The position numbers were made by a program, and so were the translations under genes. Below the pieces are notes generated by a model. That model did not search any database. It was not told the origin of the DNA and worked only from the letters and a program-made list of their open reading frames with translations. A DNA stretch of 64,000 bases from Acidobacteriota bacterium (GTDB lineage: Bacteria > Acidobacteriota > Vicinamibacteria > Vicinamibacterales > UBA2999), in the NCBI GenBank assembly GCA_030697165.1, contig JAUYQQ010000023.1, positions 186,001-250,000 on the forward strand, in the 5' to 3' direction. Below are positions 19,061-38,345 of the stretch, one piece after another (position 1 is the stretch's first letter; each line of letters opens with the position of its first letter).

Positions 19061-19067
19061 AGAGAAG

Positions 19068-19415
19068 TGGAGGCGGCGGGAGTTGAACCCGCGTCCGAGA
19101 ACACGTCGTCGCAGACCCCTACGTGCGTGTCTCCGTTCTCGTGTCGCGACCGGTTAGAAACGGAGCCAAAAGCCCCGGCCGCCATCCCCGATGTGTCTCG
19201 CTACCACGCCTCAAGGCGGAACGTGGCAGCCAGCCTACTAAATGACGATCAATCCCGAGCCGTAGGCGCTCTCAAGTTGATCGCTCACCGGTATTAAGCG
19301 GCGAGAGCGTAGTCTGCGTTCGCAGTTACGTTGTTTTTCCACGGGATTTACGAGGTGCATGGGCCTCGGCACGCGTTCCGCGATCTCGCACCCCCGTCGA
19401 AGCCAGATCGCCCCC
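19068..19415 (-). ncRNA. ssrA: Transfer-messenger RNA (tmRNA)
   Basis: About 348 nt. The 5' end GGGGGCGATCTGGCTTCGAC and the 3' end with GGTTCAACTCCCGCC followed by CGCCTCC form the tRNA-like acceptor; GGGGGCG pairs with CGCCTCC (one G-U). The tag frame on the minus strand ends GCG AAC GCA GAC TAC GCT CTC GCC GCT TAA, giving ANADYALAA, a normal degradation tag ending. CCA is not fully encoded (CCTCCACTT), so it must be added. tmRNA with SmpB rescues stalled ribosomes. The 3' end is duplicated at 18975-18993. Confidence 0.95.
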
Positions 19416-23887: not shown

Positions 23888-24826
23888 TTATTGAGCGACG
23901 ACTTGCTTCGCGAGCGCGGCCGCCAGGGCTTCGCTATCGTTCAGACAGGGGAGGAAACGGATCTGCAGTTCCGGCCGGGCGCCTGCCGCCAGCTGGCCTT
24001 CGAGCTGGCTCTCCGCGTTATCGGCCAGAAAGCCAAACGGGTAGTACACCACGTTTGTGAAGCCAGCTTGGCTAACACGCTCGAGTGTCATGTCAATCGG
24101 AGGTTCGGTCCATCGGCCGCCGCGGGTGTGGTTCAGCCAGCCGTTCAAGATCAGCCCGAAGTGTGCCGACAGGCGGGTGCGGATGGCGCCGTATAACCGC
24201 TCGGTGGCGCAGCGACCGGTGTCGATCGGGCGCGCGGGTTCGAGCAGGGTCCCATGCGCCGCCAGCACGAGCGCGGTCGCTGGCCCGGTATCCCCTTCTC
24301 CCAGTTGCGACAGGACATGCGCTGCCGAGATATCGGCGAGATGATCCAGGTCGAGTGCCGGCAGCACTTCCGTGCGCCCGCGGCGCGCCGATCGACCCGT
24401 TGGCGCGGCGGCCGCCTGTCGCGACAGCTCGTGGGTGAACGCGGAATCGGCGGCATACATCGGCGCGATCCAGACCGGATCGTCATCAGCAATGGTGCGG
24501 AGCACGTCCTGCAAGAGTGGCCGCCGGAACTCGTACGCAATATGAACCCGCCAGTCGCCTGGTGCCGACTGAGCCAGTGCGTCACGGACCGCTGCGGCCT
24601 GCGCCTCGGTGATCGGCTCGAGAGGCGACATGTAATCGTTCTCTTTCCACATGCGCTGGCGGCCGTGGGCGCGCGCCAGGGCGATGAACGGAATCGCGAC
24701 CTGGGGAATGTCGGCCACCGTTCGCGTCAGCCCCTGCAGAATCCGCCACGAGTAGACCAGTTGGTCGGTGAAACCAGGCAGTGGCGGTTCGCCGTAGGTA
24801 GTGAGGACGAGGTGTTGAAGGGTCAT
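23888..24826 (-). CDS. hemH: Ferrochelatase
   Basis: 312 residues. The last gene of the heme operon; it inserts ferrous iron into the porphyrin ring. Start MTLQHLVLTTYGEP is the usual family opening. Catalytic positions are recognisable: the histidine in ALVLAAHGT near residue 193 and the acidic residue in GFLADNAESQLE near 270. Length suits bacterial ferrochelatases (310-340). The sequence is divergent and lacks the C-terminal cysteines of Fe-S ferrochelatases. The start overlaps the hemY stop by four bases. Whether proto- or coproporphyrin is the substrate is not certain, but HemN upstream favours protoporphyrin. Confidence 0.85.
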   Translation of the reverse strand: MTLQHLVLTTYGEPPLPGFTDQLVYSWRILQGLTRTVADIPQVAIPFIALARAHGRQRMWKENDYMSPLEPITEAQAAAVRDALAQSAPGDWRVHIAYEFRRPLLQDVLRTIADDDPVWIAPMYAADSAFTHELSRQAAAAPTGRSARRGRTEVLPALDLDHLADISAAHVLSQLGEGDTGPATALVLAAHGTLLEPARPIDTGRCATERLYGAIRTRLSAHFGLILNGWLNHTRGGRWTEPPIDMTLERVSQAGFTNVVYYPFGFLADNAESQLEGQLAAGARPELQIRFLPCLNDSEALAAALAKQVVAQ

Positions 24827-26196
24827 GCCTCACCCAGCAGGCGCGTCGCGACCGATCTGGCGGTACGCCGGGCCGCCGCAATCGCGTGGTTGAAAGACAC
24901 CCCGTCACAAGCGGTGCCGCACACGTCGAGGCCGGGATGGCTCTCCAGGCGCTCACGGATCGCGGCGACCCGATCGTCGTGACCGACGGTGTACTGCGCG
25001 ATGGCCGCCGGCCACCGGAACACCTGGTGCCGAATCGGCCGATCGGCGATGCCCAGGCCCATGACCAGCTCAGTACGGGCGAGCGTGGTCAACGTCGCGT
25101 CATCGAGGGCGGCCACATCGGGCCGGCGCGCACCGCCGAGGAACACCCGCAACAACACCGCGCCGTCGGGCGCACGTCCCGGAAAGATCGAGGATTCCCA
25201 GAGCACGCCGATGGTCGCCAACTGCTCGCTCCGGGCGACGAGGTAGCCATACCCGTCCAGGCCGCGACCAAGCGACGCCGCCGCATAGCCAAGAGCGACG
25301 ACCGCCAGGCCCGCGTACGGAATCGCCGCGAGCTCGCTGGCCAGCTCGCCATCCAGCTCGCGGAGGATCGCGGACGTCTGCGATGCGGGCGTCGCGAACA
25401 CGACCTGGTCGGCCGGCAATGACAAGCCGCAGGCCAACTGCACCTGCCACGCCTGGGCGTGCCGGGAGATATTCGTGATGGCGCGGCCGGTCATGACCCG
25501 CGGTGCCAGCCGGTCGGCAAGGGTGCGGGGCAGCGTACCAAGTCCGCGGGCAAAACTCAGCAGTCGCGGCCGCCTCGGTGCCGTCTTCCGTCGGGCCAGC
25601 AACGCCCGGAACAGGCCGCCATGATTACGTTCCCACTCGACCAGGATTGGAAAATGCGATCGCACCGACAGCTGCCGGCTGTCACCGGCGGAAATCCCGG
25701 CCACTGCCGTGTCGACCAGCACCTCGGCCACCTCCCGCCCCAGGCGGCGTTCGGCAAACTCGAACACCGTCTCATCGGCGTGCGGTGGCGCCGCCTTTGC
25801 CCATGGCTCCCGCAGCAAGCGCAGCTTGGCGGGCCAACTGATGATCGGCGAGCTCAGCAGAGCCGGCGGCGCGGTGGGGACCTGCACGAGGGCGCCACCG
25901 CGAAGGACGAACCGGCGGCGCGACCGAGCGTTGGCCTCCACCAGGTCCGGGGACAACCCCAGCTCTTCGATCAAGGCCATGGTCTCTGGCTCGCTGTCGA
26001 GGAATCCGTTGGGGCCCCGCTCCACCAACCAGCCCGCGTCCTCCACGGTCCGGGCGTGGCCACCGGCCTCGTGGCCGGCGTCAATTACGAGGACGTCGAC
26101 CTTACGACCCAGCCGTGCCGCTTCGGCCTCCACCGTGTAGGCGCACGTCAGGCCGGCAATGCCGCCGCCGGCCACGATCACGCGTGGGGTGGTCAT
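24823..26196 (-). CDS. hemY: Oxygen-dependent protoporphyrinogen oxidase
   Basis: 457 residues of FAD-dependent amine-oxidase fold. RVIVAGGGIAGLTCAY near residue 5 is the dinucleotide-binding loop; VDVLVIDAGHEAGGHARTV and WLVERGPNGFLDSEP are typical of HemY-type enzymes, which oxidise protoporphyrinogen (or coproporphyrinogen) using O2. The C-terminal HPGLDVCGTACDGVSFNHAI closes the FAD site. The start at 26196 overlaps the hemN stop (ATGA); the longer frame to 26265 is unsupported. The tiny overlaps on both sides indicate coupled translation within the operon. Confidence 0.88.
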   Translation of the reverse strand: MTTPRVIVAGGGIAGLTCAYTVEAEAARLGRKVDVLVIDAGHEAGGHARTVEDAGWLVERGPNGFLDSEPETMALIEELGLSPDLVEANARSRRRFVLRGGALVQVPTAPPALLSSPIISWPAKLRLLREPWAKAAPPHADETVFEFAERRLGREVAEVLVDTAVAGISAGDSRQLSVRSHFPILVEWERNHGGLFRALLARRKTAPRRPRLLSFARGLGTLPRTLADRLAPRVMTGRAITNISRHAQAWQVQLACGLSLPADQVVFATPASQTSAILRELDGELASELAAIPYAGLAVVALGYAAASLGRGLDGYGYLVARSEQLATIGVLWESSIFPGRAPDGAVLLRVFLGGARRPDVAALDDATLTTLARTELVMGLGIADRPIRHQVFRWPAAIAQYTVGHDDRVAAIRERLESHPGLDVCGTACDGVSFNHAIAAARRTARSVATRLLGEA

Positions 26197-27596
26197 ACGG
26201 TCCTGCTGAAGACGGGCTTGGGGCCAGCGGTACGGGCGCGCAGGTACCGGTCGAACACCATGCACACGTTCCGTACGAACAGCCGGCCGAGTGGTGTCAC
26301 GTCAATCGCCCTCGCGTCGACGGTGACCAGGCCGTCGGTGGCTGGCGAGTGCGCGGCCGTCAGCTCTGCCAGCTCCTCCACGAAATAGGCCTTGAAGTCG
26401 ATGGCAAAGTCGGCTTCGACCTGCTTGATGTCGACGCGGAAGTTGCACATCAAGCCGGAGATGACGTGGCGCCGCACGAGGTCATCGAGCGACATCTCGT
26501 AGCCGCGATCCACGGCGAAACGGCCGTCACCAATCGCCGCGTAGTACTCCGTCAGCTTCTTGCTGTTCTGGACGAAGGCGCCATGCACCTCACCGATGCC
26601 TGAGACGCCAAGGGCGACCATGTCGGGGGTCTTCTGGACCGTGTAGCCCATGAAATTGCGATGCAGTTCGCCGCGCTCGGCAGCCTGCCCCAGGTCATCG
26701 GCCGGCAGGGCGAAGTGATCCATGCCGATTTGCCGGTACCCCGCACGCACGAAGGCGTCGATGGTGAGAGCCAGCAGTTCCAGCTTCAAACTCGCGGACG
26801 GCAGCGCCTCGGTCGCCAGGGCCTTCATGTGGGCCCGCATCCACGGCACGAACGCAAACGAGTACGCGGCCACGCGATCGGGCCTGAGCGTCAGCGTCTG
26901 CTCGAGGGTCTGGGCAAAGGACTCGACGGTTTGAAACGGAAGGCCGTAGATCAGATCGACATTGACCGAGGTGAAGCCAGCCGCCCGCGCCTCGGCGATT
27001 AGCGCCGCGGTCAGCTCGTAGCTCTGCTCGCGATTGATCGCCTGCTGCACCTGCGGCGAAAAATCCTGGATCCCCATCGACAACCGGTTGAAGCCCAGGC
27101 CGCGCAGGCGGCGCAACTGCGCGCTGCTGGTGACGCGGGGATCAATCTCGATGCCCAGTTCCGCCTCGGGAGTGAACGTGAAATGCTGGTGGATCCGATC
27201 AAACAGGCGCGCCAGTTGATCGCTCTCGTAGTAGGTCGGTGTGCCACCGCCCCAGTGCATCTGCGCGATCTGCCGACGCTGCGGCAGCGCCGTGGCCAGC
27301 AGCGCGATCTCCTGGTCGAGGACGTTTAGATACTGCGCCGCGACCTCGCGATGCGGGGTGATGATGACGTTGCAGCCGCAGAAGGCACAGCGCGCTTCGC
27401 AGAACGGCAGGTGCACATACGCCGAGAGCGGCTGCTGGGCATCCGCGTCGACCAGGGCCAGGCGCTGTCGATATTGCCGGTCACCGACGCCGTCGTGAAA
27501 CTCGACCGCCGTCGGGTACGAGGTATAGCGCGGACCTGGTCGATCGTACTTCTCGAGCAGTGCAAGCGTGGACGCGGTATCGGTCAGGTTGGCCAT
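26193..27596 (-). CDS. hemN: Oxygen-independent coproporphyrinogen III dehydrogenase
   Basis: 467 residues, a radical-SAM enzyme that decarboxylates coproporphyrinogen III to protoporphyrinogen IX without oxygen. The signature YVHLPFCEARCAFCGCN near residue 59 has the three cluster cysteines plus the fourth that separates real HemN from HemW-like proteins. GPRYTSYPTAVEF at the start and GMDHFALPADDL near 300 are further HemN marks. It is followed by the O2-using HemY, so the operon can work across oxygen levels. It overlaps hemE by 13 bases. Confidence 0.93.
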   Translation of the reverse strand: MANLTDTASTLALLEKYDRPGPRYTSYPTAVEFHDGVGDRQYRQRLALVDADAQQPLSAYVHLPFCEARCAFCGCNVIITPHREVAAQYLNVLDQEIALLATALPQRRQIAQMHWGGGTPTYYESDQLARLFDRIHQHFTFTPEAELGIEIDPRVTSSAQLRRLRGLGFNRLSMGIQDFSPQVQQAINREQSYELTAALIAEARAAGFTSVNVDLIYGLPFQTVESFAQTLEQTLTLRPDRVAAYSFAFVPWMRAHMKALATEALPSASLKLELLALTIDAFVRAGYRQIGMDHFALPADDLGQAAERGELHRNFMGYTVQKTPDMVALGVSGIGEVHGAFVQNSKKLTEYYAAIGDGRFAVDRGYEMSLDDLVRRHVISGLMCNFRVDIKQVEADFAIDFKAYFVEELAELTAAHSPATDGLVTVDARAIDVTPLGRLFVRNVCMVFDRYLRARTAGPKPVFSRTV

Positions 27597-28621
27597 GACA
27601 TCGCCCCCTTGTGGGCGTGAACGGCATCAATCAGGGCGTCGACCGAGGGAATGGGCGTCTCGGGCAGGATCCCGTGCCCCAGGTTCATGATGTGTCCAGG
27701 CCGGCCGGCCATGCGGTCCAGCAACTCGACCGCCCGCTCGCGCACCACCGCCGGCGTCGCAAATAGCACGTGCGGATCGAGATTGCCCTGAAGCGCCAGG
27801 TCGGGGCCGACCCGCCGTGCCACTTCGTCCAAGGGTGTGCGCCAGCACACGCCGAGTACGTCCGAGCCCGCCGCAGCCGCCGCTTCCAGCAAGTGAGGCG
27901 CGCCGTTGACGAAATAGATGACTGGCACGCCCAGGTCGCGCACGCCTCTGACCATGAACTGGATGTGCGGGAGCGCGAAGCGCCGGTACTCCGCGGCCCC
28001 GAGAATACCGGCCCACGAATCGAAGATCTGTACCGCCTGGGCGCCGGCGTGGACCTGCAACCGCAAGTAGTCGACCATCGCCACGGCAAGCTTCTCGAGC
28101 AGCGCCTCGAGGGTAGCGGGCTCGTTGAACATCAGCCGCTTGACGGCGCCAAAGCCCTCTTTGCCTTCGCCCTGTACCAGGTAGGCAGCGAGGGTGAACG
28201 GGGCGCCGCAAAAGCCGATCAGCGGCGTGCGGCCGTCCAGTTCCCGGCGCAGCAATTTCACGGCACTGGCCACGAACGGGAGCGCCTCGGCGGCCGGCCT
28301 CGCCTGCAACGCGTCGACCTGGGCCCGCGACCGAATGGGATCGGCAATCTTCGGCCCGGGATTGAAGGTCATCGCGATACCGAAGGCATCAAGCGGCAGC
28401 ATGATGTCCGAGAACAGGATCGCCGCATCGAGCGGGAACCGCCGGAGCGGTTGCAAGGTCACTTCCGCCGCCAGTTCCGGGGTGCGACATAGCTCGAGAA
28501 AACCCACCCGGCTGCGCAGTTCCCGATACTCCGGCAGGTAGCGGCCGGCCTGCCGCATGATCCAGATCGGGGTTCGATCCACGGGCTGCCGGCGGCAGGC
28601 GCGAAGGAAGCGGTCGTTCAT
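27584..28621 (-). CDS. hemE: Uroporphyrinogen decarboxylase
   Basis: 345 residues, the normal length. It removes four carboxyl groups from uroporphyrinogen III in the cytoplasm. Signatures are PIWIMRQAGRYLPEYRELR near residue 20, AILFSDIMLPLDAFG near 68 with the catalytic aspartate, IGFCGAPFTLAAYL near 134 and LQGNLDPHVLF near 285. It follows hemL with a four-base overlap and overlaps hemN by 13 bases. Confidence 0.95.
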   Translation of the reverse strand: MNDRFLRACRRQPVDRTPIWIMRQAGRYLPEYRELRSRVGFLELCRTPELAAEVTLQPLRRFPLDAAILFSDIMLPLDAFGIAMTFNPGPKIADPIRSRAQVDALQARPAAEALPFVASAVKLLRRELDGRTPLIGFCGAPFTLAAYLVQGEGKEGFGAVKRLMFNEPATLEALLEKLAVAMVDYLRLQVHAGAQAVQIFDSWAGILGAAEYRRFALPHIQFMVRGVRDLGVPVIYFVNGAPHLLEAAAAAGSDVLGVCWRTPLDEVARRVGPDLALQGNLDPHVLFATPAVVRERAVELLDRMAGRPGHIMNLGHGILPETPIPSVDALIDAVHAHKGAMSWPT

Positions 28622-29916
28622 CGCGTCATATCCTGCAAGGTCGCGCGGGCGGCCTCGACGGTCTGGGCGATGACCACTTGATCATGCGCGGTTGACAGAA
28701 ATGCGGATTCAAAGGGCGAAGGCGGCAGCAGGATGCCCCGGGCCAACATGCCGGTGAAGAACGCGACGTAGGCCTCGCGATCGACGGCGGCCGCGTCGGC
28801 CCAGCATCGCACCGGTCCGGCGGAAAAGAACATCGTCCACATCGCGCCGACCCGCTGCACCCGTGCGGCCACACCAGTGCGGGCAATCGTCTGCTGCAGG
28901 GACACTTCGAGCGATTCCCCGGTTCGCTCCAACCCTTCGTAGAGGTCTGGTGTGGCATCGATGACATCGAAGGCGGCCAATCCGGCAGCGACGGCCAGCG
29001 GGTGGGCGGCGTAGGTGCCGGCCTGATACACCGGTCCCGATGGCGCCACCAGTTCCATCAGCTCGCGGCGGCCACCGAAGGCGGCCAGCGGCAGGCCGCC
29101 ACCCGCGATCTTGCCGAGCGTCACCAGATCCGGCGGCACCCCATATCGCCCAGCGGCGCCACCGCGGCCGACGCGAAACCCGGTCATCACCTCGTCGAAG
29201 ATCAGGACGGCACCATGGCGCGTGCAGCGCTCGCGCAGCGCCTGCAGGAACCCGGCGGCCGGTGGCACGCAGCCCATGTTCCCCATCACCGGTTCGACGA
29301 TGAGCGCGGCGATGGCATTGGGCGATCCGTCAAAGCAGCGATCGACGCTCGCCAGATCGTTGAACTCGGCCACCAGGGTGTCGGCGGCGGTGGCCGCGGT
29401 CACCCCGGGTGAGTCGGGCACGCCCAAGGTGGCCGCGCCCGAGCCGGCACTGACCAGGAACATGTCGGCGTGACCGTGATAGCCGCCCGCGAATTTGATA
29501 ATGCGCGACCGTCCGGTGGCCGCCCGCGCCACCCTGACCGCGCTCATCGTCGCCTCGGTGCCGGTGACGACCAGCCGCACCATCTCGCACCCGGGCACGC
29601 GGTCGGTGATCCGCTCGGCCAATTCAACTTCCTGCGTGGAGGACAGGCCAAACACCACCCCACGGGACACGGCGTCGACGATCGCCCTCGCGATCGCCGG
29701 GTGATCGTGCCCGAGCAGGGCCGGCCCCCAGGCCCCAATCCAGTCAAGGAGACGGCGTCCGTCAACGGTCGTGAGGTGTGCGCCGTGGGCGCTCGAAATG
29801 GCCAGGGGGGGCATGCCCATGGCCTTGAAGGCGCGCACCGGCGAATGGACGCCGCCAGGGGACACACGGCGCGCCCGCTCTGCCCACATCGCCGGCGTCT
29901 GCAAGCCACTGCTCAC
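28618..29916 (-). CDS. hemL: Glutamate-1-semialdehyde 2,1-aminomutase
   Basis: 432 residues of PLP-dependent class III aminotransferase. It converts glutamate-1-semialdehyde to 5-aminolevulinate, the product that HemB condenses. Motifs: [13 protein letters not shown] near residue 25, [18 protein letters not shown] near 117, [26 protein letters not shown]-like [13 protein letters not shown] near 237, and the cofactor lysine in [17 protein letters not shown] near 262. With hemA this shows the C5 (glutamyl-tRNA) route. The start overlaps the hemB stop by four bases. Confidence 0.94.
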
Positions 29917-30896
29917 GACGTGGCCTCTCGCGATAGCGCCCGCGCGAGCGGCTTCGCAAAGTAAGTGATCAAGATGTCGGCGCCCGCGCGACGCAGGCTG
30001 ATGGCGGTTTCGAGCATGGCGCGGTCAAGGTCGATCCACCCACGCTCGGCGGCAGCGTGCAGCATCGAGTACTCGCCCGACACCTGGTAGGCCACCACCG
30101 GGACCTCGACCACTTCGCGCACCGCGCGGATCACGTCGAGATATGGCAGACCGGGCTTGACCATGACCATGTCGGCGCCTTCATCGACATCGGCGATCGC
30201 CTCACGCAGGGCCTCGCGGAGATTGGGCGGGTCCATCTGGTAGCCCCGCCGGTCACCATGCTGGGGCGTCGAACCGGCGGCCTCGCGAAACGGGCCGTAG
30301 AACGCCGAGGCATACTTGACGGCGTAGGACACGATGGCGCGATCGGTGAAGCCGGCCGTGTCCAAGGCCAGGCGAATTGCCGCGACCCGGCCGTCCATCA
30401 TGTCGGAAGGCGCGATCACATCCGCTCCGGCGCGGGCATAGGCGAGGGCGGCCTGCGCCAGCAGCGGCAACGACGCATCGTTGTCCACCTCGCCCGCATG
30501 GACGACGCCACAGTGGCCATGATCGGTGTATTCGCAGAGACAGACGTCGGCCCACACGCTGACGTCGGGTGCCTCGCGCTTGATGTTGCGGATCGCCGCC
30601 GGGACGGGTCCGTTGTCATCCCATGCGCCGCTGCCTTGCGCATCCTTCCTGGATGGCACGCCGAACAACAGCACCGCGCGAACGCCGGCGGCTGCCAACG
30701 CAGAAGCCTCGTCAGCCGCGCGGTCGGGTGACAGCCGCGACTGGCCCGGCATGGCCGGAATGGGTTCGCTGACACCCGTTCCCTCGCAAACAAACAGCGG
30801 CGCCACGAGCTGTCCGGCGCACAGGCGCGTTTCGGTGACCAACGTGCGCATGGCCGCGGAACGGCGCAAACGCCGGCCACGATGGAACGGCCGCAT
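29913..30896 (-). CDS. hemB: Delta-aminolevulinic acid dehydratase (porphobilinogen synthase)
   Basis: 327 residues. Two 5-aminolevulinates are joined to porphobilinogen. The metal site motif [14 protein letters not shown] is present near residue 118 with its three cysteines, so the enzyme is of the zinc-binding type. [20 protein letters not shown] carries the first Schiff-base lysine and [14 protein letters not shown] the second. [12 protein letters not shown] is conserved. The start [11 protein letters not shown] at 30896 shares one base with the hemC stop (TGATG), which decides it against longer frames. Confidence 0.95.
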
Positions 30897-31825
30897 CACG
30901 CCGGCGCTCCTGCAGACGAGGACGCGAACGCGGCGAGAATCTCCCCCGCCCCTTGCGCCATGAGGCGGGCCGCGGCCAGTTGGCCAAGCGCCACCGGATC
31001 GGCACCGGTGACGCACACCCGCAACGCCGCTCCGGTTGCCGCATTGAAGACGGCGGCAGACAGGCTCAACCCGCCGGCCACCGGCGTGGCAATGGCGCCG
31101 ACCGGGACGGAGCAGCCCCCGCCGAGCACGTGCAGCATGGTGCGCTCCGCCTCGACCGCACGTCTCGTCGGCGCATCATCGAGCACCGCAATCCGGCGAT
31201 GCACGGCCGTATCGCCAATACGGCATTGAATCGCCAGGGCGCCCTGCGCGGGCGCGGGCACCATGCGATCGATCGCGAAGACCTCGGTGATCGCGTGGTC
31301 GAGGCCCAGCCGTACCAGGCCGGCGCGCGCGAGAACAATCGCGTCAAGGTCCCGCCCGACCCGGGCCACGCGGGTGGGGACGTTGCCGCGCAGCGTGACC
31401 ATCTCGAGGTCCTGGCGCATCAGCCGCACTTGCGCGGTCCGCCGCGTGCTGCAGGTTCCGACCCGGGCGCCTGCCGGCAAGGTCGCGAGGGTGAGCCCAT
31501 CGCGGCCGCACAGCACATCCTCGACCGGGCCGCGCTCCGGCACGGCGGCCACGATCAGGCCGGCGGTGGAATCCACCGGCAAGTCCTTGAAGCTATGGAC
31601 CGCCACGTCAATTTCGCCGGCGGCCAGCGCCTGCTCGATCGCGGCAGTGAAGAACCCGGTGCCTTCCACGTGCGACAGTGGGACATCGGTCAGGCGATCA
31701 CCGGCGGAGGTGATCTCAACCAGTACCACCTGGAGATCACGATCGCCCGCCGACAGCCGGGCGGCCACGTGGCGGCTCTGCCACAACGCCAGGGCGCTCC
31801 CCCGCGTGCCGATCCGCAACCTCAC
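30896..31825 (-). CDS. hemC: Hydroxymethylbilane synthase (porphobilinogen deaminase)
   Basis: 309 residues. Polymerises four porphobilinogens into hydroxymethylbilane. The opening [30 protein letters not shown] and [11 protein letters not shown] are family signatures, and the dipyrromethane cofactor cysteine is in [11 protein letters not shown] near residue 236. The GTG start at 31825 overlaps the hemA stop (GTGA); the longer upstream frame lies over hemA and is a shadow. Confidence 0.94.
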
Positions 31826-32952
31826 GCGTCCGCCTCGCACGCCCTCACGGGCCGGCGGCCGGCCTGCGGCCGCAGGGCCTCGCGTGCCGCCCACTTCCGC
31901 AACCACTCGACCTCGCGGGCAATCACGGCCTCGACCCGCGGGGCCTCGGCCGCTCGCTGTTCGCGGCCTACGCGGGTCACCTGCTCGATGACCCCCAGGT
32001 CGATGCGCATGATGCCGGCGAACTCGGTCGGTTCCACGCTGGGCGGCATCGCCAGGTCGACGACGAACAAGGGCCGGTCGGCGTTGGCACACCGGCGGCG
32101 CATGTGGTCGCGGGTGATCACCCATTGGTTCACGGTGACGGCCGACACGATGGCATCAGCCAGAAGGATTTGGTCCTGAAGCGCGTCAAGACCCACGGCG
32201 TCGGCGCCCACTGAGACCGCCAGCGCCTCCGCGCGCGCCAGGGTCCGATTGACCACCACCATCTCGCGGACGCCGACGGCCTTCAGGTGCCGGGCGGCTT
32301 TGCGCGCCGTGTCACCGGCGCCGACCACCAGAACGCGGCAGGTGTCGAGCGAGACGTGCGCAGCCAGCCAGTGGATGGCGGTCGATGCGACCGACATCGA
32401 GCCGCGCGCGATGCCGGTCTCGGCCCGGGCCGCGCGTCCGGCCCGAATCGCCGCACGGAACACGCCGCCGACCAATCGACCGGCGCCGCCGGCGGTGTCA
32501 AGGGCGGCGCGCGCCTGCCCCAGCACCTCGGCCTCACCGATGACCACCGACTCGAGACCCGCGCAGACGCGGAAAAGATGGTGCGCCGCACGCTCGCCCG
32601 TCAGCCACGATGCCCGTCCACTGAGGTCTCCGGCATTGGCACCAAGGGCCGCGGCCAGGCTCCCGGACACGATCACATCATCCTGTGGCGTTCGCGAGCG
32701 CCAGTACAGTTCGAGGCGGTTGCAGGTGACCAGGAGGACGGCCTCGATGCCGCGGCTGGCGAGTGCGGCTCGGACATCGGCCATCGCGGCGGGTCCGCCC
32801 GCGAGCGTGGTCAGGCCGTCGATGCCATGCGTCCGGTGGCTGATCGACACCGCGCGCAGAGGCGCGAGGCCATCGATCGGCAGGACCGGCGCGGACGATG
32901 TCTCTGGAAACACGGGCAAGCCCAGATTAGCGAGCCCATCAGTGATCGACAA
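31822..32952 (-). CDS. hemA: Glutamyl-tRNA reductase
   Basis: 376 residues, a little shorter than the usual 420. It reduces glutamyl-tRNA-Glu to glutamate-1-semialdehyde, the committed step and usual control point of heme synthesis. The catalytic cysteine is in VTCNRLELYW near residue 76; GLESVVIGEAEVLGQ follows, and VLVVGAGDTARKAARHL is the NADPH fold. The first 30 residues before AVSISHRTHG look atypical. The gene lies 32 bases after the response-regulator gene, so it is probably in the same transcript as that regulator. Confidence 0.92.
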   Translation of the reverse strand: MSITDGLANLGLPVFPETSSAPVLPIDGLAPLRAVSISHRTHGIDGLTTLAGGPAAMADVRAALASRGIEAVLLVTCNRLELYWRSRTPQDDVIVSGSLAAALGANAGDLSGRASWLTGERAAHHLFRVCAGLESVVIGEAEVLGQARAALDTAGGAGRLVGGVFRAAIRAGRAARAETGIARGSMSVASTAIHWLAAHVSLDTCRVLVVGAGDTARKAARHLKAVGVREMVVVNRTLARAEALAVSVGADAVGLDALQDQILLADAIVSAVTVNQWVITRDHMRRRCANADRPLFVVDLAMPPSVEPTEFAGIMRIDLGVIEQVTRVGREQRAAEAPRVEAVIAREVEWLRKWAAREALRPQAGRRPVRACEADA

Positions 32953-32984
32953 TTCGCAAGAATGCGGAGACCAGCTCCGTACAA

Positions 32985-33644
32985 CTACGGAGCCGGCAGA
33001 TCCACGATGCCCTCGCGGATGGCGACCTGTGTCAGCAGGGCCACTGACTTCACGCCGAGCTTGCGCATCAGGTTGGCGCGGTGGGTCTCGACGGTGCGGC
33101 CGCCGATGTCGAGTGCGGCGGCAATCTCCTTGGTGGCCAGGCCGCGCGCCACCAGGATCAGCACTTCCCGCTCACGGTCGGTCAGGGAGCGGAGGTCCGG
33201 CGAGGCCGGTCCGCGACCCTTGAGGATCTCGGCCATCTGTTGCTGGATCGCCGGGCTGAAGTAGGTGCGGCCGGCCATCACCGCATCAATTGCCGCCGCC
33301 AGGTCCTGGACGGCCGAGTCCTTCAGCAAATAGCCGTTGGCGCCTTCTTCGAGCGCGCGCGCCACATATTCGCGGCCCGCGTGCATGGTGAGGACGATGA
33401 CTTGGAGCTGGGGCCGCTCGGCTTTGGCCACTCGTAGCACTTCGATGCCGTCGCGGCCGTCCATCTTGAGGTCGAGGACCAGCACGTCGGCCACCACCCG
33501 CCGCAACGCGTCGATCGCCTCGTGGCCGTCGGCCGCCTCGCCCACCACCACGCAGCCGGGTTGCGATTCGATGATGCGGCGAATGCCGGCGCGCACCAGG
33601 GTGTGATCGTCGGCGAGAATCACCCGCACGGGAGGCGCGTTCAT
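32985..33644 (-). CDS. NarL/FixJ-family response regulator within the heme operon
   Basis: 219 residues: receiver domain (VILADDHTLVRAGIRRI, phospho-acceptor in LVLDLKMDGRDG, lysine in GYLLKDSA) followed by a LuxR-type helix-turn-helix (LTDREREVLILVARGLATKE and GRTVETHRANLMRKLG). It shares ATGA-type overlap with the upstream kinase gene, so the two form a two-component pair. Both sit between hemD and hemA in one orientation. In Corynebacterium the heme-sensing HrrSA and ChrSA pairs have this same kinase and regulator architecture. Control of heme genes is therefore a reasonable inference from context, not shown by sequence. Confidence 0.88.
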   Translation of the reverse strand: MNAPPVRVILADDHTLVRAGIRRIIESQPGCVVVGEAADGHEAIDALRRVVADVLVLDLKMDGRDGIEVLRVAKAERPQLQVIVLTMHAGREYVARALEEGANGYLLKDSAVQDLAAAIDAVMAGRTYFSPAIQQQMAEILKGRGPASPDLRSLTDREREVLILVARGLATKEIAAALDIGGRTVETHRANLMRKLGVKSVALLTQVAIREGIVDLPAP

Positions 33645-34891
33645 GGCGCGGCCTCGACCGGAATTGACGCCGTCAGCCGCACACCCGGCACACCATGACC
33701 CGAGATGGCCAGGGTGCCGCCCGCCGCCGTGACCCGCTCCTGCATGCCGAGCCAGCCCAGGTTGGGGCGCACGTCCGGCGACAGCCCACGGCCATCGTCT
33801 TCAACCGTGAGTACGACGAGGTGTGGGCCAAGTCCGAGATACGCACGGACCCTCGTGGCGCACGCATGGCGCACGGTGTTCGTGAGGGCTTCCTGCATGA
33901 CGCGATAGATGACGACTTCGACGTTCGGTGGCAGCAGCGCGTGGCCGTCAATTTCGAGATCCACCTGCAGCCGCGAGCGCTCCGAGACGTCGGCCGCCAG
34001 GGCCCGCAGCGCGACGGCGAGTCCCAGGTCATCGAGCGCCGACGGCCGCAGCAGGTTACTGAGATCCCGGACCTGGGCCAGCGCGCGGCCAACGCGCGCC
34101 CCGGCATCGGTGTGGCCGTCGAGATCGAGCTCGATCTTCACGGCCGTGAGCGCCTGTCCGGCCTCGTCGTGCAGCTCGCGCGCGATACGGCGCCGCTCGT
34201 CTTCCTGCGCCCGCAGCAGCAGCCGGGTCAACTGTTCGAGGTCAGCGGTTCTGGAGCTCAGCCGCGCGCGCTCTTCGCCAAGAACCAGGAACAGCATCCC
34301 GAACCCGATCGCGAACAGGAACAGCATGTCGACGAACGCGCCGTACAGCACGGCCGCGCCGAAGCCGCGCAGCAGCGGGTAATCGAGGTGGTGGATGCCC
34401 CAGAGCACGAACGCCCAGGTCAGCACCTTGATGGCGCCGCTCGACGGCCGGCGTTGGTCGCGCCAGAACACCACCCCCGTCCAGATGGTGACAGAGGACA
34501 ACAGGATCGTGGAGGTGACGCCCGCCACCATCATGCTCTGCATGCCGAAGATCGTCAGCCAGGCCCACCCCACCATCAGGGGCACGGCCAGCAGGTGCCA
34601 CGGGCGCCAGGTAAACCCGCGCGACAGTTGCCACGCCGCCGCCAGCAGCAGCAGCGCGCTCAACCCGGTCATGACCTGGTGGAGAAACAGCCAGACCATG
34701 TCGCGGCGAACCAGGAAGGTGGACATCGCCGCCAGCCGCAGCACGTACAGAAACCAGGCCGCCGACCAGGTGAGGAAGTAGTCGCGCCGCTGGCGCCGCC
34801 ACAGCACGTAGCAGGTGATGGCCAGCGTCGTCGTCAGCACGGACTGAAAGCCCAGTGCGCTGCACTCGACGAAAAGGCGATCGAGAGTCAC
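33641..34891 (-). CDS. Membrane histidine kinase (HisKA_3 type) within the heme operon
   Basis: 416 residues. The first 220 contain about seven membrane helices, without a large periplasmic domain, so the signal is probably sensed in or at the membrane. One helix boundary contains WGIHHLDYPLLRG with paired histidines. The kinase core follows: DERRRIARELHDEAGQALTA with the phospho-acceptor His near residue 227, and the ATP domain with EALTNTVRHA, VEDDGRGL and GWLGMQERV. GTG 34891 is chosen as start, ten bases after the hemD stop; the upstream extension overlaps hemD. The cognate regulator gene overlaps its end. Confidence 0.85.
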   Translation of the reverse strand: MTLDRLFVECSALGFQSVLTTTLAITCYVLWRRQRRDYFLTWSAAWFLYVLRLAAMSTFLVRRDMVWLFLHQVMTGLSALLLLAAAWQLSRGFTWRPWHLLAVPLMVGWAWLTIFGMQSMMVAGVTSTILLSSVTIWTGVVFWRDQRRPSSGAIKVLTWAFVLWGIHHLDYPLLRGFGAAVLYGAFVDMLFLFAIGFGMLFLVLGEERARLSSRTADLEQLTRLLLRAQEDERRRIARELHDEAGQALTAVKIELDLDGHTDAGARVGRALAQVRDLSNLLRPSALDDLGLAVALRALAADVSERSRLQVDLEIDGHALLPPNVEVVIYRVMQEALTNTVRHACATRVRAYLGLGPHLVVLTVEDDGRGLSPDVRPNLGWLGMQERVTAAGGTLAISGHGVPGVRLTASIPVEAAP

Positions 34892-34901
34892 GCTTCGAAA
34901 C

Positions 34902-35663
34902 TTACCACGCGCGCGGCGGCGCCGTGTCGCGCAGCCGCGCCAGCGTGCGAGCGGCCTCACGAAAATCGGCACGCGCGGCCTGCTGGCAGGGGACGCCGGC
35001 GGCCGCCAGTGCGGCGGCGGTCGTCGGGCCGATCGCCACGATCGCGCTAAGCGTGGCCAAGGCATCAATGCCCACGCCGGCGATCAGAGCGGACGCGGTC
35101 GAGGGACTGCTGATGACGGCGGCGTCGGGAGCAGCGGCCACCCAGTCCAGGCGAATCTGCGCGGCCGGCCGCGGGATCATCCGGTACGCCTCGACCTCGG
35201 TGACGACGGCTCCAGCCTGACGTAACCCATCGATCAACATGCGACGCCCGCCCGGCACCGTGGGCACCAGCACACGACGGTGAGTCCACTCGATCGTCGA
35301 CAATGCGGTCCAGAGCGCCTCGGCGCCTTCCGACGCGCCGACCAAAGGCGCCGGATCCGCGCCGGCGGACACCAGGGCCTCGGCGGTGCGGGCGCCAACG
35401 GCGGCCGTCCTCACGGCGCGCGGCCATGCCGTCGTGCGTGCACCGGTCAGGGCTGACACGGTGCGGGCGCTCGAACAAATGAGCCAATCAAACGTGTCGA
35501 GGTTCGCGGCCGCAGCCTCAAGGGCGGCCGGTTCGCTGGACGGCGCCTCCTCCATGACCACGCATCGCAGGGGGTAAAACCCCTCGTCGCGGAGGGCTGA
35601 ACTGAGCGGTCCCTGATCATCCTCGTCGCGCGTGACCGCGACCCGCCAAGACAGGGACGCCAT
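34902..35663 (-). CDS. hemD: Uroporphyrinogen-III synthase
   Basis: 253 residues. Closes and inverts ring D of hydroxymethylbilane. HemD is poorly conserved, but two lobes are visible: WRVAVTRDEDDQGPLSSAL at the start, SSARTVSALTGA, AVGARTAEALVSAGADPAPL and, in the second half, VISSPSTASAL and VAIGPTTAAALAAAGV, all characteristic. It is the first gene of the heme operon; the start MASLSWRV at 35663 is taken because the longer frame runs into the divergent yfiR gene. A 133-bp gap to yfiR must hold both promoters. Confidence 0.85.
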   Translation of the reverse strand: MASLSWRVAVTRDEDDQGPLSSALRDEGFYPLRCVVMEEAPSSEPAALEAAAANLDTFDWLICSSARTVSALTGARTTAWPRAVRTAAVGARTAEALVSAGADPAPLVGASEGAEALWTALSTIEWTHRRVLVPTVPGGRRMLIDGLRQAGAVVTEVEAYRMIPRPAAQIRLDWVAAAPDAAVISSPSTASALIAGVGIDALATLSAIVAIGPTTAAALAAAGVPCQQAARADFREAARTLARLRDTAPPRAW

Positions 35664-35796
35664 CACGGCACATCGACCTCGGGCACCGACAACATCCGGA
35701 TCAGCATATAACTTCGCGCACGCGAGCCTTTGCCCGACGCTTGGGGGTGTGCTGAAGTGAACTGACGGGCGCCGCAGCCCTGCCATAGTCAAGGGG
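35664..35796. promoter_or_regulatory. Divergent promoter region of hemD and yfiR
   Basis: 133 bases between the divergent hemD and yfiR starts, the only gap of useful size before the heme operon. No convincing -35/-10 pair stands out on either strand, and I see no copy of the operator found near the TonB receptor. AGCATATAACTT around 35702-35713 is the most AT-rich part. Confidence 0.4.
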
Positions 35797-36327
35797 ATGC
35801 AGGGCCCCGGACGTCGAGCTGCCATCTGTGCGTGGCTCTGCGTGTGCGCCGCAACAGTGATTGCACAGGATGTCACCGAGTCGTCTCTCAAGGCGGCGTT
35901 CGTCCACAATTTCATCAAATTCACTTCGTGGCCGCCGGCCATCCTGCCGAGGTCGGCGCCCCTGGTGGCATGCGTGGTCGGAGACGAGGCGTTCGCCGGC
36001 GTCCTCGGCAAGTACGTCCGCGGCCAACCAGTGGACGGCCACGACATCGTGGTCCAAACCATCGCGTTCGGCGCGCCGCTGCGGTCGTGCCACCTGGTGT
36101 ACGTGTCAGGCCTGACCGGCAGCCGGGCCGCCGAGGTCGCGGCCTCGCTCAACGGCAGTCCCGTGCTGACCCTGAGCGACATCGACCAGTTCGCACACGG
36201 CGGCGGCATGGTGCAGTTCTACAGCGACCAGGGCGGGCTGCGCTTCCGCGTCAACCTCGTCAACACGAAGCGCTCAGGCCTGCAGCTCGGCTCTCAGCTC
36301 CTGTCCCTGGCGACGATTATCAAATGA
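35797..36327 (+). CDS. YfiR-family (DUF4154) periplasmic protein
   Basis: 176 residues with a signal peptide (cleavage near ATVIAQD). The mature protein matches YfiR: ESSLKAAFVHNFIKFTSWPP, LVACVVGDEAF, GQPVDGHDIVVQTI, SCHLVYVSG, VLTLSDIDQFAHGGGMVQF and NLVNTKRSGLQLGSQLLSLA. In Pseudomonas YfiR restrains the diguanylate cyclase YfiN in a redox-sensitive way. No yfiN adjoins here; instead the stop overlaps (ATGA) the start of a TonB receptor, so a different partner is likely. Confidence 0.85.
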   Translation: MQGPGRRAAICAWLCVCAATVIAQDVTESSLKAAFVHNFIKFTSWPPAILPRSAPLVACVVGDEAFAGVLGKYVRGQPVDGHDIVVQTIAFGAPLRSCHLVYVSGLTGSRAAEVAASLNGSPVLTLSDIDQFAHGGGMVQFYSDQGGLRFRVNLVNTKRSGLQLGSQLLSLATIIK

Positions 36328-38345
36328 CCCAACACCCATTCCTCGCGGCGATCTGCTCTGGCGCCGGCCGGGTCCTGCTCGTCGGCGGCCTGCTCGCCGT
36401 CCCGGCGGTCGCCCCGGCGCAGCAGCTTCATGAACTCAGTCTCGAGGAGCTCATGCGCATTGACGCCGGGCGGGTGTTTGGCGCATCGGAGCGGACCCAG
36501 CCGGTCACCGAAGCTCCCGCCTCGGTCACGTTCGTCACCAGGGAGGAGATCGCGCGCATGGGCTACCGGACGCTCGCCGAGGTGTTGCGGGGCGTGCGCG
36601 GGATGTTTGTGACCGACGACCGCAACTACAGCTACCTGGGCGCGCGGGGTTTTGCCACACCCGGCGACTACAACAGCCGCATCCTGCTCCTGGTGAACGG
36701 ACACCGGGTCAACGACAACGTGTTCGGGCAGGCGGAGATCGGCGCGGAGTTCGGCATGGACCCGGCAATGTTCGAGCGGGTCGAGATCATCCGCGGGCCG
36801 GCCTCGTCGCTCTATGGCGACAGTGCGTTCTTCGCGGTGGTGAACGTCATTACCAGGTCAGGCGCGTCTCTCGACGCGGCCGAGATCGCCGTCGAGGGGG
36901 GCAGCCTTGGCACGGCGCGGGCCCGCACCAGCGTGGGACGCCGCTTCGCCAACGGCGTGGACTTCGCCCTGTCGGCCACGGCCGAACGCAGTGCCGGCGT
37001 CGAGCAGCTGTACTTCCCCGCCTTCGATGCGCCCGACACCAACAACGGGGTGGCCGACGGCCTCGACGGCGAAGAGCTCGAGCAGTTCTACGGCCAACTC
37101 AGCTTCCGGGACGTGACGCTCACCAGTGTGTACGGCCGGCGCCAGCGGCAGATCCCCACGGCCTCGCTCGGCACCGTCTTCAACGAGCAGACTGTGCCGG
37201 AGCAGACGACGGATGCTCATACGCTGCTCGACGCGCAATACGCGCGGTCGTTCGGAGCCACACGCCTTAGCGCGCGAGCCTCCTACGATCGGCTCGCCGC
37301 CGGCGGCCGCTATCCTTTCGCCAGTGCCGAGAACCCGGCGGTCCCGATCGTCGGCACCACTGACATTCTCGGATCGCGCTGGAGCGCCGGTACCGGACTG
37401 ACGCGATCCATGCCAGGGCGGCAGGTCCTCACCGTTGGCGCGGAGTTCATCAACAACCTCCATCAGGATCAGCGGTTCCAATACAGCAATGAGGCGGAGC
37501 CGTTGTTCGTGGACCGCCAATCCTCGAGGCAGTATGCCGTCTACGCACAGGACGAAATCAGGCCGGCCAATTGGCTGATCCTCAACGCGGGCGTTCGCTA
37601 CGACGGCTACGAGCAGTTTCGCCGGTTGTCGCCACGCACGGCGGTGATCGTGATGCCGTCACCGAACGAATCCTTCAAGTACCTGTTCGGGTCGGCCTTT
37701 CGCGCACCCAATGCGTATGAGCAGAACCCCTTCTACTTCGGCGTGTCGAACCTGCTGCCCGAGTCGATCAACACCCATGAAGTGGTCTGGGAGCGCTACA
37801 CCAACGACACGCTGCGAACGGCGGTCTCGACATACTGGTACACCGCCGAGCGCCTGATCACGCTGAGGACGGATCCCTCCACCCCCCTGGGCGTGGCCTA
37901 CGTCAACGAAGGGCAGGTGCGCGCCAGGGGGCTCGAGCTCGAAGCGCAGATGCGGATCAGGGGCGGGGTGCGGGCGGTGACCAGTTATGCGCTGCAACGC
38001 GTCACCGATCAGCAGACCGGGACGGCTCTCACCAACTCGCCGCGGCACATGCTCAAGGCGCGGGTCATCATGGATGGTCCGACCAACCGGCCCATCATCG
38101 CGGCCGAAGTGGTGCACCTGAGCAGCCGGACGACGCTCGCAGGTCAGACCCTCGGGTCCGCGACGGTCGCCAACGTGACGGTCACCCAGCCGATCGGCCG
38201 CGACTTCGAGCTGGTCGGCATGTTCCGCAACCTGTTCAACGAGCAATTTGAGGATCCGGTATCCGGCGCGCACCGCCAGGACTCCATCCTGCAGAACGGC
38301 CGGACGTTCCGCATCGGCCTCGGCTGGAAGTTCTGGTCGCAATAG
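36324..38345 (+). CDS. TonB-dependent receptor paired with YfiR
   Basis: 673 residues: signal peptide (to APAQQLHEL), a plug domain (PASVTFVTREEIARMGYRTL, VNGHRVNDNVFGQAEI, RVEIIRGPASSLYGDSAFF, VVNVITRSG) and a barrel ending in FRIGLGWKFWSQ. The text SLEELMRIDAGRVFGASERT before the plug is typical of the BtuB/CirA-like receptors found with DUF4154 proteins. ATG 36324 overlaps the yfiR stop. The substrate is not clear; vitamin B12, catecholate or another ligand are all possible. The operon appears to stop at 38345, 34 bases before the next start. Confidence 0.85.
   Translation: MTQHPFLAAICSGAGRVLLVGGLLAVPAVAPAQQLHELSLEELMRIDAGRVFGASERTQPVTEAPASVTFVTREEIARMGYRTLAEVLRGVRGMFVTDDRNYSYLGARGFATPGDYNSRILLLVNGHRVNDNVFGQAEIGAEFGMDPAMFERVEIIRGPASSLYGDSAFFAVVNVITRSGASLDAAEIAVEGGSLGTARARTSVGRRFANGVDFALSATAERSAGVEQLYFPAFDAPDTNNGVADGLDGEELEQFYGQLSFRDVTLTSVYGRRQRQIPTASLGTVFNEQTVPEQTTDAHTLLDAQYARSFGATRLSARASYDRLAAGGRYPFASAENPAVPIVGTTDILGSRWSAGTGLTRSMPGRQVLTVGAEFINNLHQDQRFQYSNEAEPLFVDRQSSRQYAVYAQDEIRPANWLILNAGVRYDGYEQFRRLSPRTAVIVMPSPNESFKYLFGSAFRAPNAYEQNPFYFGVSNLLPESINTHEVVWERYTNDTLRTAVSTYWYTAERLITLRTDPSTPLGVAYVNEGQVRARGLELEAQMRIRGGVRAVTSYALQRVTDQQTGTALTNSPRHMLKARVIMDGPTNRPIIAAEVVHLSSRTTLAGQTLGSATVANVTVTQPIGRDFELVGMFRNLFNEQFEDPVSGAHRQDSILQNGRTFRIGLGWKFWSQ

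Follow-up and report, generated by a model that had tools for sequence, protein, structure and literature searches.

A NarL-type two-component system beside hemA in Acidobacteriota and Candidatus Eisenbacteria: a candidate controller of heme supply

The described systems closest to the one treated here are HrrSA and ChrSA, actinobacterial heme sensors of Corynebacterium whose regulators are of the NarL/LuxR type, and HemKR of Leptospira, whose regulator HemR is OmpR/PhoB-like. HrrS and ChrS are reported to combine a membrane-embedded sensor of six helices with a HisKA_3 kinase and to bind heme 1:1, in HrrS with heme contact via Tyr112, Phe115 and Phe118 (PMC5812335); for HrrA, more than 200 targets are described, including genes of heme biosynthesis and of the respiratory chain (PMC7337898). 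HemKR (Hklep/Rrlep) is reported to lie among the hem genes of L. interrogans, between hemE and hemL; single mutants of L. biflexa require hemin or 5-aminolevulinic acid (ALA), and HemK has two predicted membrane segments and a dispensable loop of 32 residues (PMC2266917). HemR is described as binding a hem-box, TGACA-N6-TGACA, TonB-linked transport genes respond, and ALA shuts the system down (PMC11426443). Here we describe a histidine kinase (HK) and response regulator (RR) encoded within the complete heme operon of an acidobacterium of the order Vicinamibacterales (assembly GCA_030697165.1), in a window – the whole stretch of DNA analysed – of 64,000 nucleotides, C23:186001-250000 (contig JAUYQQ010000023.1) of a 5.39-Mb genome scored 100% complete. 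The best explanation of the pair as a whole is, we argue, a dedicated controller of heme supply, a reading to which we give a probability of about 0.58.

The features on which the argument turns are these (window positions):

34902..35663, minus strand: hemD, uroporphyrinogen-III synthase (PF02602 HEM4, E 2e-34)
33641..34891, minus strand: HK, sensor histidine kinase of 416 amino acids, GTG start (HisKA_3 1.6e-9, HATPase_c 3.9e-7)
34280-34891, minus strand: predicted seven-helix membrane sensor, HK residues 1-204 (AlphaFold), with HisKA_3 and HATPase_c after it
34679..34681, minus strand: codon of His71 (motif WLFxHQ, early in helix 3), conserved in all 22 sensors, putatively on the periplasmic side
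34388..34393, minus strand: codons of His167-His168 (motif HHLDYP, where helix 6 ends), conserved in all 22 sensors, putatively on the periplasmic side
32985..33644, minus strand: RR, NarL/LuxR-type response regulator of 219 amino acids (Response_reg 1.2e-27, GerE/LuxR 5.5e-19)
32976..32991, minus strand: candidate operator site 1, perfect palindrome TCCGTAGTTGTACGGA, overlapping the RR stop codon (sequence scan)
32953..32968, minus strand: candidate operator site 2, TCCGCA-N4-TGCGAA, TCCGCATTCTTGCGAA, abutting the predicted -35 (sequence scan)
32924..32952, minus strand: predicted hemA promoter, -35 TTGTCG (32947-32952), 17 bp, -10 TAATCT (32924-32929), read from the sequence
31822..32952, minus strand: hemA, glutamyl-tRNA reductase, open reading frame from TTG 32952 (GlutR_N 3.1e-26)

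On the minus strand the genes run hemD, HK, RR, hemA, hemC, hemB, hemL, hemE, hemN, protoporphyrinogen oxidase and ferrochelatase, a complete heme operon; hemD and the kinase gene are 10 bp apart, and HK and RR overlap by 4 bp. The kinase has HisKA_3 and HATPase_c, the regulator is of REC-GerE build, and all four matches exceed the Pfam cut-offs. Gene order and domains thus agree with the original prediction, made from the letters alone, of a NarL-type pair between hemD and hemA in a complete heme operon, and its comparison with the kinase and regulator classes of HrrSA and ChrSA holds for a pair that is kept beside hemA in two phyla. As far as the published descriptions of HrrSA and ChrSA go, the likeness takes in a membrane-embedded sensor with a HisKA_3 kinase and, by predicted sites, may extend to heme synthesis and respiratory genes under one regulator. 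Their six helices and Tyr-Phe-Phe interface, however, are set apart by description from the seven predicted helices and three invariant histidines found here; HrrA has more than 200 targets, whereas the window genome has one perfect site; and the present pair lies inside the heme operon. By location the nearest precedent is Leptospira HemKR, both pairs lying among hem genes, but a two-segment kinase with an OmpR/PhoB-like regulator contrasts with seven predicted helices and a GerE regulator, and the hem-box TGACA-N6-TGACA with TCCGTA-N4-TACGGA. Seven helices joined to a kinase, as predicted here, also recall the 7TMR-type sensor kinases (7TMR-DISM and others), yet a Pfam scan of the sensor in 22 members gave no convincing family, 7TMR-DISM_7TM (PF07695) matching one of the 22 at E 0.028. 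By sensor anatomy the present system is a member of neither HrrSA nor HemKR. A literature search found no two-component system of such a kind for Acidobacteriota or Eisenbacteria, which is no proof of absence.

Conservation was assessed in a set of 22, consisting of the window and 21 loci that match nearly the whole kinase, one genome per GTDB species (L071-L090 and L105; L numbers denote loci, G numbers genomes). Six of the 21 are from Acidobacteriota, 11 from Candidatus Eisenbacteria (Eisenbacteria below) and three from Gemmatimonadota; one comes from a record named Planctomycetota. Altogether 80 loci were found: in the other 59 the match is chiefly to the kinase portion, reaching into the sensor as well in L091, and these were left out of the counts; two further kinases with the same sensor, L230 and locus L271 of G143, stand outside the 22. 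G001, G036 and G032 are the same contigs as L071, L072 and L073 and were counted once; L079 and L161 come from a single genome, as separate contigs. Genes of relatives were called with a home-made codon-usage caller, and their starts are approximate.

The order HK-RR-hemA is kept in 10 of the 22, namely in six Acidobacteriota (the window and L071-L075) and four Eisenbacteria (L077, L079, L081, L088). Among the matches listed for 59 relatives, three hold close full-length copies of the kinase (87, 70 and 70% identity), all just upstream of hemA; these three are included among the six Acidobacteriota loci. G051 has a 30% match to kinase residues 28-415. The gene hemD lies upstream of the pair in the Acidobacteriota loci and after hemC in L077, L081 and L088 (the L079 contig ends in hemA), so that the constant partner of the pair is hemA. 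Whether the pair stays between hemD and hemA had been named as a check: it adjoins hemA in 10 of 22 loci and in two phyla, with hemD elsewhere in the Eisenbacteria loci long enough to show it. Within Acidobacteriota the two-component system looks rare and patchy: in 396 evenly sampled genomes the sensor scores strongly in two (the window genome and G143) and weakly in five, at most eight candidates having been scored per genome, which may miss some.

The remaining loci carry the second line of evidence. GlutR_N (hemA) and ALAD (hemB) searches recovered both genes in the 10 linked genomes and in that of L082, and neither in 11 of the 12 genomes in which the pair lies away from hemA. HemE divides the set in the same way: the 11 genomes that have hemA give matches of E 7e-54 or better; among the 11 that lack it, seven have distant URO-D-fold proteins only (E 1e-27 to 1e-43) and four none. 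COX1 is present in 22 of 22, and therefore all 22 genomes should need heme. Seven of the 11 genomes without hemA have RR followed, in the same orientation, by a gene for a TonB-dependent receptor, which comes immediately next in L080, L084, L086, L089, L090 and L105 and after one intervening gene of the opposite strand in L083. The loci L085 and L087 stop at the contig edge. In the genome of L087 the operator stands 163 bp from the end of a contig that runs on into a TonB gene and the same two secreted proteins as in other Eisenbacteria; in that of L085, L229 holds the end of RR and then a TonB gene; in that of L105, L230 is a second HK-RR-TonB unit. Company with unrelated genes in relatives had been named in the original prediction as what would speak against it. 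Of the 12 loci off hemA, seven have the receptor, two a contig edge and three neither, so that the prediction survives in most loci, with L076, L078 and L082 as exceptions.

Heme receptors are reported to have FRAP and NPNL boxes with a conserved histidine, exceptions being known (PMC3792355). FRxP, a His 12 residues later and NPxL are found in the receptors of L080, L083, L084 and L086, which are all four of the Eisenbacteria receptors in the 22 loci. As a control, seven Eisenbacteria genomes gave 83 receptor matches, of which 30 loci, with 29 open reading frames of more than 400 amino acids, were fetched: FRAP-His-NPxL occurs only in those same four, and none was seen in the fetched receptor loci of three heme-making Eisenbacteria genomes. 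Neighbours from the Fe-dependent repressor family (L077, L083 and L084 by Pfam, L087 by NCBIfam), an ABM protein in L087 that is closest to HmuQ, under the cut-off, and ApbE (L077, L083) fit heme and iron.

Two further features of these neighbourhoods may be recorded in their own right. After the TonB receptor of Eisenbacteria without hemA come secreted-looking proteins of about 600-650 amino acids (L080 12663-15415, L083 9282-11129, L084 5028-7715, L086 5144-7932, L218 156-2923) and, in L080, L084, L086 and L218, a second one of 250 amino acids. Those checked have no CxxCH, and Pfam gave a weak FlgD_ig match only, for the L080 protein; they are candidates for heme or hemoprotein capture. Four Eisenbacteria share a conserved SPFH/Band 7 protein, assigned by Pfam in L077 and by eye in the others, whose gene lies on the upstream side of the kinase and points away from it (L077 8978-9847, L081 8982-9851, L085 8093-8962, L088 1514-2383).

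Both kinds of locus have one motif in the gap downstream of RR: TCCGTA-N4-TACGGA, a 16-bp palindrome. With at most two mismatches site 1 follows RR in 17 of the 21 loci scanned (not in L076, L078 or L083; L082 has a poor one only), and 12 of those 17 have a second site 21 to 24 bp further on; in the window, site 2 starts 23 bp after site 1. In L083 the palindrome lies further downstream, before the receptor. Across about 93 Mb the perfect palindrome has 19 copies in 16 of the 22 genomes, as against 0 for a reversed-pattern control, and the single perfect copy of the window genome is at hemA. Eight copies lie between RR and hemA, five between RR and TonB, one at an RR by a contig end, one before the TonB gene of L087's genome and four elsewhere. 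The palindrome was read off loci of this same set, so the 14 RR copies are partly by construction and the other five form the independent test. The perfect form occurs in eight of the 11 genomes without hemA; by comparison, relatives that have no close copy of the pair supplied 26 hemA loci, and the palindrome, allowing one mismatch, is found in 0 of them. We infer that RR binds the palindrome. The original prediction had proposed regulator binding at 35664-35796, which the sequence does not support: that region has no operator-like site with up to two mismatches (one at three), whereas the gap between RR and hemA has two.

The position of the sites suggests what RR does. In the six Acidobacteriota hemA promoters TTG stands directly after site 2 and TAnnCT 23 bp after it; in L077, L081 and L088 TAnnCT stands 24 bp after site 2, without TTG (the second site of L088 is hardly recognisable), so that nine of 10 hemA loci have TAnnCT at 23-24 bp. 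The window sites are centred near -44 (site 2) and near -66 (site 1), which is an activator position, and RR would accordingly be an activator at the hemA promoter. On this layout hemD-HK-RR and hemA onward would form separate transcription units. Since TTG 32952 coincides with the predicted -35, in-frame GTG 32913 is the more likely start of hemA.

Away from the heme-supply loci there are four perfect palindromes, and all four stand before multiheme-cytochrome genes or operons. Those of G431 and G428 stand with a multiheme cytochrome and an MtrB/PioB porin, that of G440 before a multiheme cytochrome of 962 amino acids, and that of G435 before a gene for an NHL-repeat protein, after which come two multiheme cytochromes; the palindrome recurs at this NHL operon in G440 with one mismatch and in G432 with two. 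Paired-CXXCH genes lie on 1 to 6 contigs of G428, G431, G435 and G440 (among the matches listed), so four of four at cytochromes is not expected by chance. Checked for an HrrSA-like regulon, the predicted sites thus lie at hemA and, in relatives, at multiheme cytochromes, with hemA only in the window genome. The palindrome before a multiheme cytochrome and MtrB/PioB porin is seen in two Acidobacteriota genomes, at L217 5821-9114 and L216 2969-6339. One-mismatch palindromes were dropped as a regulon list, being at background: of 15 contexts inspected four made sense (L228, L229, L230, L231), and the rest, including both extra hits in the window genome, were chance-like.

A further question is how the pair and the operon came to be associated. 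In a quick hemA tree of 36 rows, the pair-linked genes and L161 form one clade across Acidobacteriota and Eisenbacteria, with a support of 100 in the Shimodaira-Hasegawa-like approximate likelihood-ratio test (SH-aLRT); outside it fall the 27 other rows, of which 26 belong to the family and order of the window genome. As this clade crosses phyla, hemA seems to have moved between them, and the whole operon with its switch probably did so too. The kinase tree shows at least two gains or losses of hemA linkage on well supported branches. In the window's own genus, five of eight genomes (G002, G003, G005, G006, G008) have no match to the window's hemA at E 0.001; heme synthesis may have been gained and lost often there.

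From a 22-row alignment AlphaFold predicts seven long helices in the sensor, residues 1-204 of HK (5-34, 37-62, 65-91, 97-116, 120-144, 151-168 and 181-203; mean predicted local distance difference test score 90.4, predicted template modelling score 0.87), and the longest stretch between helices is about 12 residues, in agreement with the original description of about seven helices and no sensor loop. Lysine and arginine average 2.77, 2.86 and 2.95 in loops 1-2, 3-4 and 5-6 and 1.36, 0.55 and 1.27 in loops 2-3, 4-5 and 6-7; under the positive-inside rule these counts put the N-terminus, in all likelihood, outside. Across the 22 full-length sequences 26 of 204 sensor positions are invariant, including H71, H167 and H168; those of polar or aromatic character are His, Trp, Asp, Arg, Tyr, Gln and Thr, and given the N-out orientation 12 of 14 such residues fall in the outer half. 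Trp67, Gln72, Asp170, Tyr171, Arg175 and Asp188 would thus face the periplasmic side together with His71 and His167/168. HHLDYP, singled out earlier as a candidate heme ligand, is kept in 22 of 22 sensors. Heme as the ligand of the sensor is plausible.

The fold gives little further guidance. A sequence search of the PDB with the sensor had no match at E 1. Foldseek with the model returned bundles like those of G-protein-coupled receptors (GPCRs) only, at best E 6e-3, and VIA-align placed the model on GPCR-like bundles with a best Z of 15.2 and a root-mean-square deviation of 3.5; these fold searches were set aside, the Foldseek E being above 0.001 and a Z near 15 barely exceeding chance for helical bundles. 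Kinases of the Gemmatimonadota type in L105 (3620-5386) and L271 (6763-8519) have an extra stretch, GAF-like by eye, between sensor and kinase core, which the kinases of L089 and L090 do not have.

The operon behind hemA completes the pathway, and in L071-L075, as in the window, ferrochelatase is its end:

30896..31825, minus strand: hemC (similarity to and position in relatives; named from the sequence without a Pfam scan)
29913..30854, minus strand: hemB (ALAD), start approximate (similarity to relatives)
28618..29916, minus strand: hemL (named from the sequence without a Pfam scan)
27584..28621, minus strand: hemE (URO-D; sequence similarity)
26193..27596, minus strand: hemN, oxygen-independent coproporphyrinogen oxidase (TIGR00538 above cut-off)
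24823..26265, minus strand: protoporphyrinogen oxidase (TIGR00562 above cut-off)
23888..24826, minus strand: ferrochelatase (PF00762 E 1.9e-26; TIGR00109 8e-10, below cut-off)

Divergent from the operon, on the plus strand, are genes for a YfiR/HmsC-like protein (PF13689; 35797-36327) and a TonB-dependent receptor, by NCBIfam (36324-38345). Control by the pair of these genes at 35797-38345 was considered and dropped: they were not found beside the pair in L071-L074, the four Acidobacteriota relatives whose contig extends past hemD. The window also holds a transfer-messenger RNA gene (19067-19415, minus strand) with the tag ANADYALAA.

We propose the following mechanism. The kinase would monitor the status of heme (or porphyrin) at or within the membrane, by means of the seven-helix bundle with its invariant His71 and His167/168 on the periplasmic side; it would be active when heme is low and switched off by bound heme, the sign to be expected of the response. 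RR would bind the tandem operator just after its own gene and activate the adjacent promoter, the target being hemA and the operon behind it in heme makers and the TonB receptor in genomes without heme synthesis. Extra sites at multiheme-cytochrome operons would, in some genomes, tie heme supply to large heme users. Heme-supply control is preferred because of the linkage to hemA, the swap to a TonB receptor where heme synthesis is missing, and the palindrome common to both; as judged from gene neighbourhoods, the heme link of the pair is real. The linkage, the swap of target, the common palindrome, the cytochrome sites and the invariant residues are read directly from the sequences, the seven helices from a structure prediction.

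Several observations nonetheless weigh against this reading. In L076, L078 and L082 the pair adjoins no hemA and no TonB receptor; L082 has hemA elsewhere and no good operator site, and in the genome of L076 the single perfect palindrome stands at a cytochrome operon. The absence of heme genes rests on metagenome-assembled genomes. One-mismatch hits are at background, 33 against 31 for the reversed pattern (52 in total, including the 19 perfect ones), and TAnnCT at the site-2 spacing is missing from L079 and from the receptor loci tested (L080, L085, L086). TIGR01785 is the best NCBIfam model for five of five linked receptors scanned, at 153 to 221 bits under a cut-off of 316.85; as proof of heme receptors it was dropped, being below cut-off and ranking first for the window's unrelated TonB receptor as well. 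FRAP-His-NPxL fails in six of 10 linked receptors checked: the Gemmatimonadota receptors (L089, L090, L105, L230) have the boxes without the His, that of L229, in L085's genome, has FRAP and His without NPxL, and that of L218, in L087's genome, is without FRAP. Four paired-CXXCH cytochrome loci of the window genome have no site with up to two mismatches. Finally, a regulator that activates both heme supply and cytochromes fits a respiratory or redox signal better than simple heme shortage.

That last point leads to the main rival to a heme ligand, a redox or quinone signal. The kinase might read the redox state of quinones, oxygen or an extracellular acceptor, and induce cytochromes together with heme supply, heme being output. 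Membrane histidines can also hold quinones; the four perfect palindromes off the heme-supply loci all precede multiheme cytochromes, two with MtrB/PioB porins; one further site, with a single mismatch, falls within an operon of cytochrome bc/c7 type, whose bc genes were assigned by eye; the heme operon relies on the oxygen-independent hemN; and heme supply and demand would be switched with the same sign. Yet heme supply, as hemA or as the TonB receptor, is the commonest target; the cytochrome sites occur sporadically, with none at the four cytochrome loci examined in the window genome; and neighbours of the iron-repressor, HmuQ-like and ApbE kinds suggest heme and iron. We consider a respiratory sensor unlikely, though well short of negligible; if heme supply, the commonest target, is the primary one, heme status explains the sign better. 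A heme precursor (ALA, a porphyrinogen) or iron as the signal, in place of heme, appears distinctly improbable: the pair precedes hemA, the first gene of the route to ALA, and HemKR is reported to be shut down by ALA (PMC11426443), but the pair persists in 11 genomes in which neither hemA nor hemB is detectable, eight of them with a perfect palindrome, and these genomes should make neither ALA by the hemA route nor porphyrin, which speaks against a precursor such as ALA. That the linked hemA genes form one clade across two phyla (SH-aLRT 100) would also suit a cassette inherited or moved as a unit, in which the pair is a passenger regulating something unrelated; its persistence where hemA is missing, in most cases next to a TonB receptor, the palindrome common to both kinds of target, and the sole perfect copy of the window genome at hemA leave this very little room.

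Heme-supply control by the pair can be carried further, into a more specific and more tentative proposal to which we lean less than evenly. The pair would then be a portable controller – a GPCR-like seven-helix kinase with a periplasm-facing histidine pocket for heme, a NarL-type activator and a tandem palindrome – that moves between phyla with the heme operon, is kept where heme synthesis is missing and is there wired to a heme receptor, and in some genomes sets multiheme cytochromes. If this is true, one switch would match heme supply to extracellular electron transfer.

How heme supply is set is poorly known in bacteria outside the well-studied groups. Here the sensor, the regulator and a candidate operator have been delimited with single-base precision, and the putative switch stands before heme synthesis or before an uptake receptor according to the ability of the genome to make heme, reaching multiheme cytochromes in some. 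Whether heme or respiratory demand is sensed in these phyla thus becomes directly testable, with one reporter and one purified protein.

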